From contig NZ_FOTD01000001.1 of assembly GCF_900114465.1 (NCBI RefSeq), positions 186,001 to 250,000 on the forward strand: a stretch of DNA of 64,000 nucleotides, written 5' to 3'. Of the stretch, positions 15,528-33,222 are shown piece after piece; position 1 is the first letter of the stretch; every line of letters begins with the position of its first letter. Under the pieces are notes generated by a model. The model searched no databases. It worked only from the letters and a program-made list of their open reading frames with translations, and was not told where the DNA came from. This stretch comes from Trichococcus palustris. GTDB taxonomy: Bacteria; Bacillota; Bacilli; Lactobacillales; Aerococcaceae. A program made the translations under genes and the position numbers.

Positions 15528-15547
15528 TACAGTAATTTAAGCAGTGA

Positions 15548-16215
<668 letters not shown>

Positions 16216-28829: not shown

Positions 28830-29051
28830 CGGTAGCATATCTCCGAACTGGAGCAAACATCAAGCAGAAACCTTTATTGGTACTTCGATTACATCAAAAA
28901 GTTTTCGATGCAGGAGACATGTTTTCCAAAACTTTTGGATGCTCGCCCTTAACCGGTCATCGGTGGGGTGGGTTTTTTTGTCGCTCTTTTTCGGAAGCGG
29001 CAAGATATTTGGAATTTCATTAAAATATCTCATTTTTCTCTAATGCCCATC
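28830..29051. other. Gene-free stretch before the TrpXYZ leader
   Basis: AAAAGTTTT (28897-28905) can pair with AAAACTTTT (28928-28936), and a G-rich segment precedes a seven-T run near 28972. Nothing else is recognised. Confidence 0.4.
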
Positions 29052-29080
29052 TTGACATTGTTTTTAACATTGGGTACTAT
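29052..29080 (+). promoter_or_regulatory. Sigma-A promoter of the trpXYZ-type leader
   Basis: TTGACA (29052-29057), exactly 17 bases, TACTAT (29075-29080). Transcription would start near 29087, about 315 bases before the first transporter gene. Confidence 0.8.
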
Positions 29081-29111
29081 TGATTTATCAGCAGATAAAG
29101 GAGCAGTTATT

Positions 29112-29174
29112 ATGAGAAAATTTACTTGCGTTTCTAAACCAAATAGATTCGATTGGCAAAGCCGCGTAGAGTAG
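29112..29174 (+). CDS. Putative 20-residue leader peptide of the transporter operon
   Basis: AAAGGAG (29097-29103) lies 8 bases before an ATG that opens a 21-codon frame ending at TAG (29172-29174). The peptide is MRKFTCVSKPNRFDWQSRVE. It contains one Trp codon, at codon 15, five codons before the stop, and no run of any amino acid. Its position between a consensus promoter and a set of competing hairpins that ends in a terminator is that of an attenuation leader. A ribosome paused with the Trp codon in the A site should leave the base-pairing segment just after the stop (29173-29179) free, while one at the stop codon would cover it. Translation and function are inferred. Confidence 0.55.
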   Translation: MRKFTCVSKPNRFDWQSRVE

Positions 29175-29304
29175 GTTGTTCTTTGTGACGTAATGACTGT
29201 CCATAGATACAACCTCAGATGAACCGTCTGAACGAGTATCTATGTGGATTACTAAAGATATTTTATCGCCACATAGACAATAAGGGTCTGTGTGGCGTTT
29301 TCTG
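29173..29304 (+). promoter_or_regulatory. Transcription attenuator with four competing segments
   Basis: Segment 1 AGGTTGT (29173-29179) pairs with ACAACCT (29209-29215). Segment 2 CCATAGATAC (29201-29210) pairs with GTATCTATGTGG (29236-29247). Segment 3 TCTATGTGG (29239-29247) can instead pair with CCACATAGA (29269-29277). That last segment is also the left arm of the terminator: CGCCACATAGAC (29267-29278) with GTCTGTGTGGCG (29286-29297), one G-U pair, followed by TTTTCTGTTTT. So 1:2 frees segment 3 to act as antiterminator, and 2:3 allows termination. Confidence 0.6.
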
Positions 29305-29310
29305 TTTTAA

Positions 29311-29347
29311 AGCTGCCATACACAGTTCAGATGGCGGCTATTTTTTA
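29311..29347 (+). terminator. Second terminator hairpin in the leader
   Basis: AGCTGCCAT (29311-29319) pairs with ATGGCGGCT (29331-29339), one G-U pair, followed by ATTTTTTAT. It stands between the attenuator and the first gene, so read-through must pass it too; its loop (ACACAG) can pair with CTGTGT in the first terminator. Confidence 0.6.
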
Positions 29348-29402
29348 TCATTTATAAATGAAACAAAAAAATAAAAACTAGAAAATATTGGAGGAATTCG
29401 AC

Positions 29403-30449
29403 ATGAATAAATTTTTAAAAGTAGGATCAACGCTGTTAACACTTTTGGCAATAACCTTTTTGGTCGCTTGCGGAAACACGGGCTCGAACGGTGGAACTAC
29501 TTCATCGGATGGGTCTGCCTCAAGCTCTTCAACGGCAGCTTCTGATAGCGATCTTCCTTATATCGGTATCATGCAATTGACGACTCACCCTGCATTGGAC
29601 TTGATCACTGAAGGCATCATCGATCAACTGGCTGCTGCGGGTTATGTTGATGGCAAAACCGCCACAATCGATTTCCAGAATGCCCAAGGTGACCAATCGA
29701 ACATGCAGTCCATAGCAGAACGCTTCGTTTCCAACCACGCGGACATCATGATCGGGATTGCGACGCCGGCAGCACAAGCCTTGGCGAACGCTTCTAAGGA
29801 CATCCCAATCATCATGGGTGCGATAACCGATCCTGTAGCGGCCAAATTGGTGGCATCGATGGAGGCACCCGGCGGAAACATCACAGGCGTCAGCGACAAG
29901 ACACCGACACGCGATCAATTTGTTTTGATTCAACAATTGATGCCTCAAGCCAAGAAAATCGGTATCCTGTACTCTTCGGCCGAAGATAACTCCATCAGTT
30001 CCGGAAAAGAAGCCGAAGAAGTGGCTAAATCTTTAGGGCTTGAAACGGTCACGAAAACGGTCACTTCCACAAACGACATTGCCCAAGTAGCCGAAAGTTT
30101 GGCAAATCAAGTGGATGCCATCTATGTTCCTACGGATAACACGATTGCAAGCGGGATGGGTACGTTGATTCCCATCACTGATTCTTACAACATCCCTGTT
30201 TTCCCGGCAGTAGATACGATGGTCAAAGAAGGCGGTTTAGCGACAATCGGGCTGAACCAATATGCTTTGGGAACCCAAACCGGTGCCGTGGCAGCCGACA
30301 TCTTGGCAGGTGCGGATCCTGCAACCTATCCCGTTCAGTATGCAAGCGGGATCGAATTGGTCATCAATCAAGAAAAAGCCGATCAATTGGGGATCAAGAT
30401 TCCTGATGACATCGCACAAAATGCAGTTTATGTAAAACAAGGGGAGTAA
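29403..30449 (+). CDS. trpX: ABC transporter substrate-binding lipoprotein, TrpX-like
   Basis: 348 residues from the ATG at 29403 (GGAGG 8 bases upstream). The signal peptide ends in a lipobox, FLVAC with Cys22 or so, followed by a Gly/Ser/Thr linker. The mature part is of the PF04392/COG2984 ABC substrate-binding family: YIGIMQLTTHPALDLITEGIIDQL, the NAQGDQSNMQSIAERFVSN segment, GIATPAAQALANA, PIIMGAITDPVAAKLV and YVPTDNTIASGM. In Firmicutes this family with COG4120 and COG1101 partners is predicted to take up tryptophan or another aromatic amino acid. The symbol rests on that prediction. Expression is probably controlled by the leader described just upstream. Confidence 0.85.
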   Translation: MNKFLKVGSTLLTLLAITFLVACGNTGSNGGTTSSDGSASSSSTAASDSDLPYIGIMQLTTHPALDLITEGIIDQLAAAGYVDGKTATIDFQNAQGDQSNMQSIAERFVSNHADIMIGIATPAAQALANASKDIPIIMGAITDPVAAKLVASMEAPGGNITGVSDKTPTRDQFVLIQQLMPQAKKIGILYSSAEDNSISSGKEAEEVAKSLGLETVTKTVTSTNDIAQVAESLANQVDAIYVPTDNTIASGMGTLIPITDSYNIPVFPAVDTMVKEGGLATIGLNQYALGTQTGAVAADILAGADPATYPVQYASGIELVINQEKADQLGIKIPDDIAQNAVYVKQGE

Positions 30450-30454
30450 TAACT

Positions 30455-31351
30455 ATGAACATGATCATCTCTGCCGTTTCCCAAGGCTTGCTTTGGAGTA
30501 TATTGGCACTGGGCTTATTTGTAAGTTTTAGGATTTTGGATTTAGCGGACATGACGACCGAGGGGGCTTTTCCCCTCGGCGCTGCCGTTGCTGTACAAGC
30601 GATAACATTAGGGGTCAATCCTTATCTTGCCATTATTTTTGCGATCATCGCCGGTTGTGCAGCAGGATTGATCACTGGCTTTTTGATTACAAAATTGCAG
30701 ATCCCCAGCTTGCTGGCCGGGATTTTGACGATGACCGGTCTCTATTCCATCAATCTGCGCGTGATGGGCCGGGCCAACATCAGTCTGTTAGGGAAGAAAA
30801 CGGTCTTCACCGCTCTTCAAAATATGAATTTACCGCGCCATTTTGACACCATCTTTTTCGGCCTGGTTGTAGTGCTGTTGATTATCTTCCTTTACACCAT
30901 CTTTTTCAAAACAGAATTCGGTCAAGCCTTGATCGCAACCGGTGATAACGAAGCGATGGCAAGATCATTGGGTATTTCGACCAATACGATGAAAATCATC
31001 GGTTTGATGCTTTCCAACGGTATCGTGGCTTTGGCCGGTTCCATCATTGCGCAGGACAACGGCTATGCGGACATCAGCATGGGTATCGGTACAATCGTTA
31101 TCGGACTTGCATCTATCATCATCGGTGAAGTGCTGTTCACAAATGTTTCCTTCAAATTGCGCCTGGTTTGTCTGATCATCGGATCGGTGCTGTACAGATT
31201 GATTATGGTATTGGTATTGGAAGCCGGCATGAATCCAAACGACTTCAAGCTGATTTCCGCCATCCTCTTGACATTCTTCCTGGCGTTGCCGAAAATCAAG
31301 GAAACTTACTACCTATATCAATTAAGAAAGAAGGTGAGACGCAATGGCTAA
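30455..31351 (+). CDS. trpY: ABC transporter permease, TrpY-like
   Basis: 298 residues with about eight to nine membrane helices, of the branched-chain-type permease superfamily (COG4120). It opens with MIISAVSQGLLWSILALGLFVSFRILDLADMTTEGAFPLGAA. The EFGQALIATGDNEAMARSLGIS segment (about 150-171) is the ATPase-contact loop of this permease class. It begins 5 bases after the binding-protein gene, and its last 8 bases overlap the ATPase gene. Substrate inferred from the cassette, likely an aromatic amino acid. Confidence 0.88.
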   Translation: MNMIISAVSQGLLWSILALGLFVSFRILDLADMTTEGAFPLGAAVAVQAITLGVNPYLAIIFAIIAGCAAGLITGFLITKLQIPSLLAGILTMTGLYSINLRVMGRANISLLGKKTVFTALQNMNLPRHFDTIFFGLVVVLLIIFLYTIFFKTEFGQALIATGDNEAMARSLGISTNTMKIIGLMLSNGIVALAGSIIAQDNGYADISMGIGTIVIGLASIIIGEVLFTNVSFKLRLVCLIIGSVLYRLIMVLVLEAGMNPNDFKLISAILLTFFLALPKIKETYYLYQLRKKVRRNG

Positions 31352-32138
31352 TCAAGAAGCGATGTTGACGATGACCAACGTCTCAAAAACGTTCTACCCC
31401 GGTTCACCCAATCAGGTGAATGCTTTGCAAGACGTTAATCTGACGGTCAATAAAGGGGATTTCATCACTTTAGTCGGTGGAAACGGCGCCGGGAAGTCCA
31501 CTTTGCTGAATGCCATTTCCGGCAATTTCCTTCCCGATACCGGCGACATCGTCGTAAACGGAAACAATGTGACTTACCTGAAGGAAGATAAACGCGCACC
31601 GTATATCAGCCGTGTTTTCCAGGACCCTAAGATGGGAACCGCGCCAAGAATGACCGTACAAGAAAATCTGTCCTTGGCTTATCGCCGCGGCGACAAAAGA
31701 ACGCTGCGTTTCGGCACTTCAACCATCGAAAAGGCCTTCTTCAAGGAAGAATTGAAAAAATTGGGCTTGGGCCTTGAGAACAGGATGGAAGCCGAAATCG
31801 GCCTGCTATCCGGCGGACAAAGACAATCCATCGCCTTGTTGATGGCGACCTTGAAGAAACCGGATATCTTATTGCTGGATGAACATACGGCGGCACTCGA
31901 TCCGAAAACGGCAAAGCTTGTCTTGGAATTGACCGATCAGCAAGTAACCGAAAATAATCTGACCAGCATCATGATCACGCACAACCTACAGGATGCCATC
32001 CAATACGGCAACCGTATGCTCGTTCTGCATCACGGCCAAATCGTGAAGGATTACGATGCCGAAGCGAAGAAAGCTTTGACGCCGGAAGCCATTTTCGCGG
32101 AACTTCAGGCTTTGTCCATCCAGGATATTTTGATATAA
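31344..32138 (+). CDS. trpZ: ABC transporter ATPase, TrpZ-like
   Basis: 264 residues with all nucleotide-binding motifs: Walker A GGNGAGKST near residue 45, Q-loop at VFQDPKMGT, signature LLSGGQRQS near residue 153, Walker B ILLLDEHTAALDP and the switch histidine in MITHNLQDA. The glutamate after Walker B is present, so ATP hydrolysis should be intact. COG1101 type. It completes a binding protein-permease-ATPase cassette. It overlaps the permease end by 8 bases, and AAGGTGAGACGCA precedes the ATG. Confidence 0.9.
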   Translation: MANQEAMLTMTNVSKTFYPGSPNQVNALQDVNLTVNKGDFITLVGGNGAGKSTLLNAISGNFLPDTGDIVVNGNNVTYLKEDKRAPYISRVFQDPKMGTAPRMTVQENLSLAYRRGDKRTLRFGTSTIEKAFFKEELKKLGLGLENRMEAEIGLLSGGQRQSIALLMATLKKPDILLLDEHTAALDPKTAKLVLELTDQQVTENNLTSIMITHNLQDAIQYGNRMLVLHHGQIVKDYDAEAKKALTPEAIFAELQALSIQDILI

Positions 32139-32154: not shown

Positions 32155-33015
32155 GTGTTGCTGAAAAAAGGGGATGCCGTCGGGCTTATCAGCTGCTCAA
32201 ACGGCCTGAAGAATACCGAGGCTGCTCATGCTCTCGTTTCGACGTTCACGCAATTTTTGGAGCGGGAATATGGTCTGGTTGTCGTATGCACCGCTGCCGT
32301 GTTTGTGGATGCAGAAACGGAAAGGACGCATCCTCCGGCTTTCCGCGCTGCCTGTCTGCAGGAACTCTATCTGAACGATGGCATCAAAGCGATCTTCGAT
32401 CTGTCCGGCGGCGACCTTGCCAACGAAATCCTGCCTTTTCTTAATTTTGATTCCATCAAAGTGTATCCCAAACCGTATTTTGGCTATAGCGATAATACGG
32501 TGATCGTCAACGCGCTGCAGCAAAGGACGGGCATACGAAATTATCTGTATAATCCGAAGGTGTTGGTCAGCAGCGAGTCGCTGTTTCAAAAAGTCGCATT
32601 CGATGGGATGCTTGGCTCCAGTTCGGTGGACATGTCGGCATATTTGGAGCTGGATGGGCCACCAGGCTGCGAGCCACCGAATGATGCCTGCTATGTGGGC
32701 GGAAACATCCGGTGCTTGTTGAAATTGGCCGGAACCGCGCATTGGCCGGATTTCCGGAAGAAAATAGTCGTTCTGGAATCGGCCGGCGGTCAGTATGAGC
32801 AGATGTGCAGCGGATTGGCCCAATTGGAACAGATAGGCGTATTCGCGCAAGTACAAGGTGTGATACTTGGTCAGTTCATGGCACTTTCGAATAACAACCA
32901 AAGAGACGCTCTCATCCAGGTCTGCAAAAAGGTTGCCGATGCATACGCTGTCCCGCTGTGGACAACAGCTTTTATCGGCCATGATGATTTATCCAAACCG
33001 ATACCCATCGGTTAA
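32155..33015 (+). CDS. S66-family LD-carboxypeptidase / MccF-like peptidase with short C-terminus
   Basis: 286 residues starting at GTG (AGGAGG upstream), 16 bases after the ATPase gene. S66 marks are GDAVGLISCSNG at the start, the nucleophile serine in GYSDNT near residue 104 and the acidic/His part of the triad as VLESAGG and a final FIGHDDLSKPIPIG. Enzymes of this family cut L,D-peptide bonds of muropeptides or inactivate microcin C-like compounds. Family members normally continue 15-30 residues beyond PIG with a closing beta strand. Here the frame stops at once, four bases before a long inverted repeat, so the end may have been lost. Activity is uncertain. Confidence 0.8.
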   Translation: MLLKKGDAVGLISCSNGLKNTEAAHALVSTFTQFLEREYGLVVVCTAAVFVDAETERTHPPAFRAACLQELYLNDGIKAIFDLSGGDLANEILPFLNFDSIKVYPKPYFGYSDNTVIVNALQQRTGIRNYLYNPKVLVSSESLFQKVAFDGMLGSSSVDMSAYLELDGPPGCEPPNDACYVGGNIRCLLKLAGTAHWPDFRKKIVVLESAGGQYEQMCSGLAQLEQIGVFAQVQGVILGQFMALSNNNQRDALIQVCKKVADAYAVPLWTTAFIGHDDLSKPIPIG

Positions 33016-33019
33016 GAAA

Positions 33020-33131
33020 AGCGGTCCAAGCCGCTCTGCCTCGACAGAAATTTAGGAAATTTGGCCCTGAATGAGCATACTGCGCAATGGGTCAGATTTA
33101 TCTAATTTCCGAGAGGCAGGCTTGGACCGCT
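33020..33131. repeat. Long imperfect inverted repeat next to the S66 gene end
   Basis: AGCGGTCCAAGCC (33020-33032) is perfectly inverted at 33119-33131. Inner arms TGCCTC (33037-33042) with GAGGCA (33113-33118), and GGAAATT (33055-33061) with AATTTCC (33104-33110), continue the stem. The 112-base unit looks like a small palindromic element. No target duplication is obvious. Confidence 0.6.
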
Positions 33132-33222
33132 AGACATCATGTGATGGCACGAAAAGAAACCTTTAAAAAACTGCTGTGATGCACTTCTTATATCAAAAAA
33201 ATAATTTTCTTGCTGTTAACAA

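Follow-up and report, generated by a model that had tools for sequence, protein, structure and literature searches.

The leader of a trpXYZ-type operon of Trichococcus palustris is very probably a ribosome-mediated transcription attenuator, which would sense slow decoding of a Trp codon, and therefore a shortage of charged tRNA-Trp, and control a tryptophan importer. The leader (positions 29052–29402, + strand) lies in a window of 64,000 nt, the whole stretch of DNA that was analysed. It comprises an SD-led short ORF with a cognate regulatory codon, together with conserved, mutually exclusive pairings that include an intrinsic terminator, two of the features by which an attenuator is recognized. 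The assignment draws on sequence, conservation, covariation, and the match between leader codons and the binding pocket of the downstream protein; translation of the ORF, stalling, the kinetics of the switch, and the response to tryptophan are predicted from these.

Organization of the leader

The leader contains the following elements, all on the + strand.

29052–29080, +, sigma-70-type promoter TTGACA-17-TACTAT (TTGACA 29052–29057, TACTAT 29075–29080), a consensus match only (10/12)
29097–29103, +, ribosome site AAAGGAG, 8 nt 5' of the leader ATG
29103–29109, +, 5' arm of a stem with 29194–29200, overlapping the ribosome site (from an alignment of 24 Trichococcus and Jeotgalibaca sequences)
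29112–29174, +, leader ORF MRKFTCVSKPNRFDWQSRVE, 20 residues with a single Trp codon (ATG 29112, TAG at 29174)
29154–29156, +, putative regulatory Trp codon; predicted 3:4 pairing peaks across the family with this codon in the A site
29160–29169, +, segment 0, which resembles segment 4 and is able to pair with segment 3
29173–29179, +, segment 1, AGGTTGT, which overlaps the leader stop codon and pairs with segment 2
29194–29200, +, 3' arm of the ribosome-site-region stem, partner of 29103–29109
29202–29215, +, segment 2, CATAGATACAACCT, at the start of the RF04312 match (29200–29307)
29224–29233, +, segment L, CCGTCTGAAC, long-range pairing with segment 5 (29325–29334)
29236–29247, +, segment 3, GTATCTATGTGG, common to helices 2:3, 3:4, and 0:3
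29267–29278, +, segment 4, CGCCACATAGAC, 5' arm of terminator 1
29286–29302, +, segment 4', GTCTGTGTGGCG, with a T-rich tail, 3' arm of terminator 1 (4' itself 29286–29297)
29311–29346, +, second terminator-like hairpin with a T-run, read from the sequence and containing segment 5 (29325–29334)

The promoter, the ribosome site, and the 20-residue ORF with one Trp codon are found where a preliminary description had placed them, and so are pairings 1:2, 2:3, 3:4, and 4:4' (the last a terminator) and the second terminator. The elements and the logic of that description stand, but it was incomplete, missing segment 0, the ribosome-site stem, pairing L:5, the match to RF04312, and the Phe/Tyr class of leaders.

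A consensus scan gives four promoter-like sites in the leader region, compared with a shuffle mean of 1.7. Terminator 1 (4:4') has a 12-bp stem with 7 GC pairs, followed by TTTT. It is the only terminator listed by the terminator scan, because the 11-nt loop of the second hairpin exceeds the limits of the scan. By eye, a hairpin like the second terminator is present in Jeotgalibaca and, in Trichococcus, before the first operon but not in the second copy. The RNA from 29080 to 29402 has a folding energy of −93 kcal/mol, compared with −64.8 ± 4.5 for 100 dinucleotide shuffles (z −6.2).

Relation to the trpB motif and other RNA families

At gathering score, an Rfam scan assigns no family to the leader, and the whole-window result is a PyrR site only (PyrR-binding attenuator RF00515 at 15544–15643, 55.7 bits).

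The homologous trpXYZ operon of Streptococcus suis has an experimentally tested Trp T-box (PMC9382623), and control by uncharged tRNA-Trp through a T-box would be the analogous explanation here. A T-box is found neither in the whole-window scan at gathering score nor in a scan of 29000–29420 that admits E values up to 5, which bears out the earlier remark that the leader has no T-box motif. In addition, the conserved blocks of the leader are the ORF and the four segments. We regard T-box control as having practically no chance of being correct.

A permissive Rfam scan of 29000–29420 returns RF04312, the "trpB ncRNA motif", at 29200–29307 (51.3 bits, E 1.9e-6). The alignment is full-length (model positions 1–107) and runs from segment 2 to segment 4', including hairpin 2:3, the terminator stem 4:4', and the U-run. 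Since 51.3 bits is below the gathering score of 59, the window leader is a below-threshold relative of RF04312 and no formal member. The gene context of RF04312 is like that of the window (an ABC transporter, sometimes trpB), whereas the Rfam model, unlike the window leader, includes neither the ORF nor segment 0 or 1.

RF04312 was described in 2024 as SRC-39-1 and listed among strong riboswitch candidates (PMC11109978). According to the same report, it has more than 900 representatives, mostly before an uncharacterized ABC transporter and now and then before trpB, and it also occurs in Fusobacteria (PMC11109978). Leaders of the RF04312 type could accordingly be metabolite riboswitches, with tryptophan or a related small molecule as the ligand of the RNA and no role for the ORF. 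The ranking by the discoverers speaks for this, as do the two conserved hairpins and the conserved unpaired GGCU 3' of segment 3. However, the discoverers themselves leave a classic attenuator possible (PMC11109978), and the evidence given below from the ORF, from helix 0:3, and from the leader codons argues against it.

Among 395 Lactobacillales genomes, RF04312 matches are present in 210 at E ≤ 0.001 and in 59 above the gathering cut-off. In a 249-genome sample of the phylum, matches at E ≤ 1e-5 are confined to its two Lactobacillales genomes. In the open-licence literature on the trpB motif and on leader-peptide attenuation in Lactobacillales, we find no identification of the motif as an attenuator. 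Panina and others (2003) reportedly treated aromatic amino acid regulation in this group, and may already mention such leaders.

The leader ORF and its Trp codon in Lactobacillales

The RF04312 model begins at segment 2, 3' of the ORF, and carries no information on the ORF. We read 140 of the better-scoring RF04312 matches from Lactobacillales and dropped one, which has no element and adjoins a tRNA gene (L201). The remaining 139 elements were thus gathered by a model blind to the ORF. In 138 of them, TGG occurs in an upstream ORF, the exception being L212; the picker favoured Trp-containing ORFs. The conservation of the short ORF and its Trp codon in relatives, which the preliminary description had called for, is thus found. 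TGG lies 20 or 21 nt 5' of the GUUG of segment 1 in 118/138 elements. The start codon is ATG in 137 of the 139 elements, GTG in one, and ATT in one (L183, whose leader ORF, IKNVTILFQISHQSWQSWQG, apparently starts at ATT).

A Trp-blind rule finds an SD-ATG ORF in 135/139 elements, and the first such ORF holds Trp in 132. Applied to shuffled upstream regions, the same rule finds an ORF in 143/2780, with Trp in 31. An ORF that is present in 135/139 elements by an unbiased rule argues against its being incidental to a riboswitch. Matches to model R1 are no evidence for Trp codons, because each sequence used to build R1 begins with TGG; the RF04312 matches are such evidence.

There are two Trp codons in 99 of 138 leaders, one in 37, and three in two, with WQNWRR or WQSWRR as the typical sequence. 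The window leader has a single Trp codon, whereas 101/138 relatives have two or three. TnaC is an arrest peptide, a nascent chain that senses tryptophan within the ribosome. A TnaC-like peptide in the present leader would sense free tryptophan, hold the ribosome at the stop codon, and mask segments 0 and 1, leading to termination. Such a peptide predicts the same direction of control as slow decoding, and the residues that follow Trp are conserved (Gln in 117/138, followed by Asn or Ser in 114 and next by Trp in 101). The number of codons between Trp and stop is not fixed, however, but ranges from 2 to 10 across 138 leaders. Moreover, the codons themselves are frozen (Gln as CAA in 117/117, Arg at +4 as CG[TC] in 88/89, Arg at +5 as AG[AG] in 93/93), and L022 keeps the GCCACAT block in a different reading frame. 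With synonymous positions frozen and the frame shifted in L022, the constraint 3' of Trp looks like one on the RNA, not on the peptide. Finally, the Phe/Tyr class described below would require a new arrest peptide. We consider an arrest peptide very unlikely, and favour sensing of slow Trp decoding.

Covariation of the pairings

Alignment A3 contains 89 Trp-class sequences, hand-picked for spread from 120 non-redundant ones, and alignment A4 contains 24 Trichococcus and Jeotgalibaca sequences. Counted over sequences that share ancestry, and hence not as independent events, the changes in A3 support each of three helix sets. In the terminating set, 2:3 with 4:4', 95.3% of cells pair and 152 show double changes (shuffle mean 36.3). 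The antiterminating set, 1:2 with 3:4, is 88.8% paired, with 118 double-change cells (shuffle mean 35.7), and the nested set, 0:3 with 1:2, is 81.6% paired, with 143 (shuffle mean 44.5). The observed values are reached by 0/500 shuffles, and slid controls are less than 51% paired. Helix 1:2 alone is 86.5% paired, and at one of its pairs A-U occurs 37 times, G-C 34 times, and C-G 7 times. Compensatory changes, proposed earlier as a check of the four stems 1:2, 2:3, 3:4, and 4:4', are found in all of them.

For helix 0:3 alone, 76.9% of cells are paired, and double changes occur at 8/13 pairs. This pairing accounts for the unpaired GGCU, which otherwise speaks for a riboswitch.

In A4, 92.3% of the cells of the ribosome-site stem are paired, with G-C/A-U and C-G/U-A exchanges at two pairs. 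Pairing L:5, with 8/10 pairs tested, is 98.4% paired, with exchanges of A-U (13) for G-C (11) and of U-A (16) for C-G (7). Taken together, these two helices do not exceed shuffles in two of five measures, namely double-change pairs (4, shuffles 3.5) and pair types (10, shuffles 12.8).

Among eleven elements of the Phe/Tyr class, the automatic consensus is itself 0:3 with 1:2 and 4:4'. In this structure, 98.0% of cells are paired, with modest covariation, and pair types are not above shuffles (18 vs 18.2).

Folding with the ribosome in place

To represent the decision point, the RNA outside the ribosome is folded up to segment 4, with the leading edge of the ribosome 14 nt (Trp) or 13 nt (stop) from the A-site codon. 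With the ribosome at the Trp codon of the window leader, 3:4 has a probability of 0.85 and 2:3 of 0.00. With the ribosome at the stop codon, the values are 0.18 for 3:4 and 0.75 for 2:3; they depend on the footprint, a 14-nt edge giving 0.36 and 0.70. Across 89 elements, 3:4 exceeds 0.5 in 93% with the ribosome at Trp, and 2:3 exceeds 0.5 in 98% at stop. Decision-point folding thus agrees with the polarity proposed in the preliminary description, in which a stall at Trp favours 1:2 and 3:4, and a ribosome at the stop codon favours 2:3 and 4:4'.

With the 14-nt edge, the family mean of 3:4 is 0.80 at Trp; one and two codons upstream it falls to 0.72 and 0.50, and from the third codon on it is 0.34–0.47. 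Past the Trp codon, it is 0.79 after one codon, 0.72 after two, 0.26 after five, and 0.16 after six. Edges of 12 and 16 nt leave the peak unchanged within a codon. The upstream drop in 3:4 in the family, with 1:2 intact and 2:3 rare, is the effect that segment 0 would cause. In the window leader itself, stalls 5' of Trp also favour 3:4 (0.58–0.85), so that the upstream drop is small.

In the ribosome-free RNA of the window, 2:3 has a probability of 0.65, 3:4 still 0.42, and 0:3 0.00; the family means are 0.66 for 2:3 and 0.13 for 0:3. The last value (with 0.00 in the window) speaks against 0:3 as the dominant pairing of the free RNA. Pairing 2:3 prevails, and both pairings end in termination.

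For the Phe/Tyr class, 33/59 loci are usable for folding; 26 are skipped because their segments were not all found by regular expressions, and one further locus (L259) lies outside the 59. The number of 3:4 pairs is about 2 for stalls at least three codons upstream of the Phe/Tyr block, 9.5–10.3 while the A site lies anywhere between the codon preceding the block and the fourth codon of the block, and 4.3 at stop.

When segment 4' is included in an equilibrium fold, the terminator prevails whatever the ribosome state (family means 0.95–0.97, window 1.0), and the ribosome states are not discriminated. Because the terminator always wins at equilibrium, the switch must be kinetic, with the choice made during transcription.

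Proposed mechanism

In the proposed mechanism, a ribosome would translate the leader ORF behind RNA polymerase. A stall with the Trp codon in the A site would leave segment 0 covered and segment 1 free to form 1:2, and segment 3 would be released to form 3:4. Formation of 3:4 would block terminator 1 (4:4'), terminator 2 would be blocked through L:5, and transcription would read through. When the ribosome reaches the stop codon, segments 0 and 1 would be covered, allowing 2:3 to form and transcription to terminate at 4:4'. With no ribosome, or with a stall further upstream, segment 3 would be withheld from segment 4 either by segment 0 (with 1:2) or by the ribosome-site stem (with 2:3). The default would therefore be termination. 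The parts that segment 0, the ribosome-site stem, and L:5 play in switching are those that we infer from the pairings.

Downstream genes and the binding pocket

The leader is followed by three genes.

29403–30449, +, trpX, substrate-binding lipoprotein (NF041285, 424.9 bits against an equivalog cut-off of 390; PF04392), Gln-286 at the Trp-contacting position
30455–31351, +, trpY, permease (PF02653)
31344–32138, +, trpZ, ATPase (PF00005)

The binding protein scores above the TrpX equivalog cut-off and has the Trp-contacting Gln, in agreement with the earlier prediction of a tryptophan transporter downstream. The closest named relatives of the TrpX protein are from Trichococcus species (80–83% identity) and Jeotgalibaca caeni (66%). 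The gene behind the 140 RF04312 matches is a TrpX homologue in 126 cases and another gene in nine; none is found in five. Six of the nine other genes begin like tryptophan synthase beta, and one of them was checked with Pfam (PF00291).

Two Trp-class leaders have unusual neighbours. The neighbour downstream of L043 (genome G132) resembles a group II intron reverse transcriptase and not trpX. L160 precedes an oligopeptide-binding-like protein and is a second element in its genome (G043), besides L127.

In the Trp-binding protein SP1069, a Gln contacts indole, and Tyr is at the same place in Tyr- and Phe-binding relatives (PMC6816091, the CD0873 paper). The best solved relative is 3lft (SP1069) for the window TrpX and 6hni (CD0873) for the protein behind L212. 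Aligned to Gln-286 of the window, the pocket position is Gln in 124/124 readable binding proteins behind Trp leaders (one of 125 is truncated). Behind Phe/Tyr leaders, it is Tyr in 8/8 proteins of the RF04312-found set, and Tyr in 41, Phe in 3, and Gln in none of the 44 proteins of the R2 set, which overlaps the former. The identity of the leader codons and the predicted specificity of the binding protein are therefore matched, an agreement that is an association of lineages and not of independent events, because the proteins within each class are related. Both leader classes are matched in the genome of the window and in 4/10 other Trichococcus genomes.

The CD0873 paper describes a second selectivity residue, Glu in the Tyr binder (PMC6816091). 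Phe and Tyr specificity are indistinguishable here, because this residue is mostly Ser in the Phe/Tyr set (35/44).

The shift of leader codons from Trp to Phe/Tyr along with the downstream pocket or pathway is a further argument against a riboswitch, to which, all evidence considered, we attach only a slight probability. An attenuator that reads its leader codons remains the favoured explanation.

A Phe/Tyr class of leaders

L212, the only element without Trp among the 139, has the leader MSTNKRHTAQLNHFYFSYFRYSL, with Phe/Tyr codons at the corresponding place. Weaker RF04312 matches in the family of L212 yield eleven Phe/Tyr elements, L212 included. The 22 weaker places read in family f6 are 11 Phe/Tyr elements, 2 Trp elements (L227, L229), 8 spurious matches, and 1 unreadable match, which begins at base 12 of its contig (L230). 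L227 and L259 are both cut off at contig ends. The former has a Trp leader (MTHTDTIQLNSWQSH) with a TrpX-like protein behind it, and the latter a Phe/Tyr leader (MLKPMQQLNNNFYFSYFRYCL) with a family-3-like binding protein.

Model R2 was built from the eleven Phe/Tyr elements, with sequences beginning at the Phe/Tyr codons. It has matches at E ≤ 0.001 in 250/395 genomes of the order, an upper bound for the Phe/Tyr class, because R2 weakly finds Trp elements too (six coinciding places, E 1.7e-8 to 1.5e-4). By a hand count of the table, the best E is ≤ 1e-10 in about 190 genomes. The block [x][FY]FS[YF]FR, or something close to it (for instance YFYSYFR or YYFSYLR), is present in all 60 R2 loci read, a count that is not independent on its own because R2 contains these codons. 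In L260 and L261, the rule detects no SD-led start codon. The genome of the window has one R2 match (L268, G000:C50:35305-35458, minus strand), with the leader MQTQRNIHNHINSFDFSFFRCCL; the second TrpX-family protein of this genome, whose pocket residue is Phe, is encoded behind it.

Behind the 60 Phe/Tyr leaders are 44 genes for TrpX-family proteins and 16 others. As judged by sequence, the latter comprise ten aroE genes, a single DAHP synthase gene, four genes for family-3-like binding proteins, and a transposase-like gene. One each of the aroE, DAHP synthase, and family-3-like binding protein kinds was checked with Pfam.

The Phe/Tyr class has a counterpart in Rfam. RF02863 (sRNA_2410) matches 7/7 of the Phe/Tyr leaders tried at E ≤ 0.01, and is above its cut-off of 61 in three of them (L260, 72.9 bits; L274, 70.7 bits; L273, 67.4 bits). 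On L268, it scores 56.5 bits, below the cut-off, and on the Trp leader of the window (29000–29420) it has no match at E up to 5. In Enterococcus faecium, sRNA_2410 is 195 nt long and gives two transcripts on Northern blots; the available part of that report presents it as a small RNA, without a stated cis role (PMC5593968). The length and the two-transcript pattern are as expected for terminated leaders.

On balance, we favour the view that RF04312 and RF02863 are the Trp and Phe/Tyr specifier classes of one order-wide attenuator of Lactobacillales. In this attenuator, segment 0 would act as a band-pass. With no ribosome, or one stalled further 5', it would pair with segment 3, leaving a stall at the specifier as the one event that opens the operon; this role is that of the family average, and is clearer in the Phe/Tyr class than in the window. 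The specifier would be rewritten together with the transporter pocket. The treatment of an orphan riboswitch candidate and a catalogued sRNA as two putative classes of one attenuator with an added masking segment appears to be new. If it is correct, RF04312, a family without a known ligand and with more than 900 members reported, ceases to be an orphan riboswitch candidate, and what E. faecium makes as an "sRNA" is a terminated leader. With leader codons (Trp or Phe/Tyr) and one pocket residue (Gln or Tyr/Phe) changing as a pair, leaders would predict the cargo of uncharacterized ABC binding proteins, and the arrangement would offer attenuation a way of ignoring stalls at other codons.

In three Phe/Tyr elements (L231, L238, L240), hairpin 4:4' has no U-run, and a further hairpin with a U-run lies downstream. 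The alternating chain of these elements looks two steps longer, because the 5' arm of the further hairpin can, by eye, pair with 4'.

Comparison with known attenuators

The trp leader of Escherichia coli has a short ORF with tandem WW, mutually exclusive RNA pairings, and an intrinsic terminator. The window leader is alike in its short ORF with regulatory Trp codon(s), its exclusive pairings, and its intrinsic terminator. It differs in that it has one more alternating step, so that a stall favours 1:2 and 3:4, not 2:3. In addition, leaders of the window type have segment 0, which is expected to penalize stalls elsewhere, have single or WxxW codons instead of tandem WW, and mostly control transporters.

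Candidate leader-peptide attenuators of Firmicutes include the His leaders of the Bacillus cereus group, Eubacteriales, and Erysipelotrichales (PMC9413887). As described in the available part of that report, they differ from the present leaders in their consecutive His codons, in the taxa, and in preceding histidine biosynthesis operons.

Sequences 3' of the operon

A gene for an LD-carboxypeptidase (peptidase S66) lies directly 3' of trpZ (32155–33015) and possibly belongs to the same operon. Just 3' of this gene is a repeat (33016–33135) with 13-nt perfect inverted ends (33020–33032 and 33119–33131). The repeat has 44 matching places in its own genome, of which three, itself included, are full length at more than 90% identity, and it looks like a short non-coding mobile repeat.
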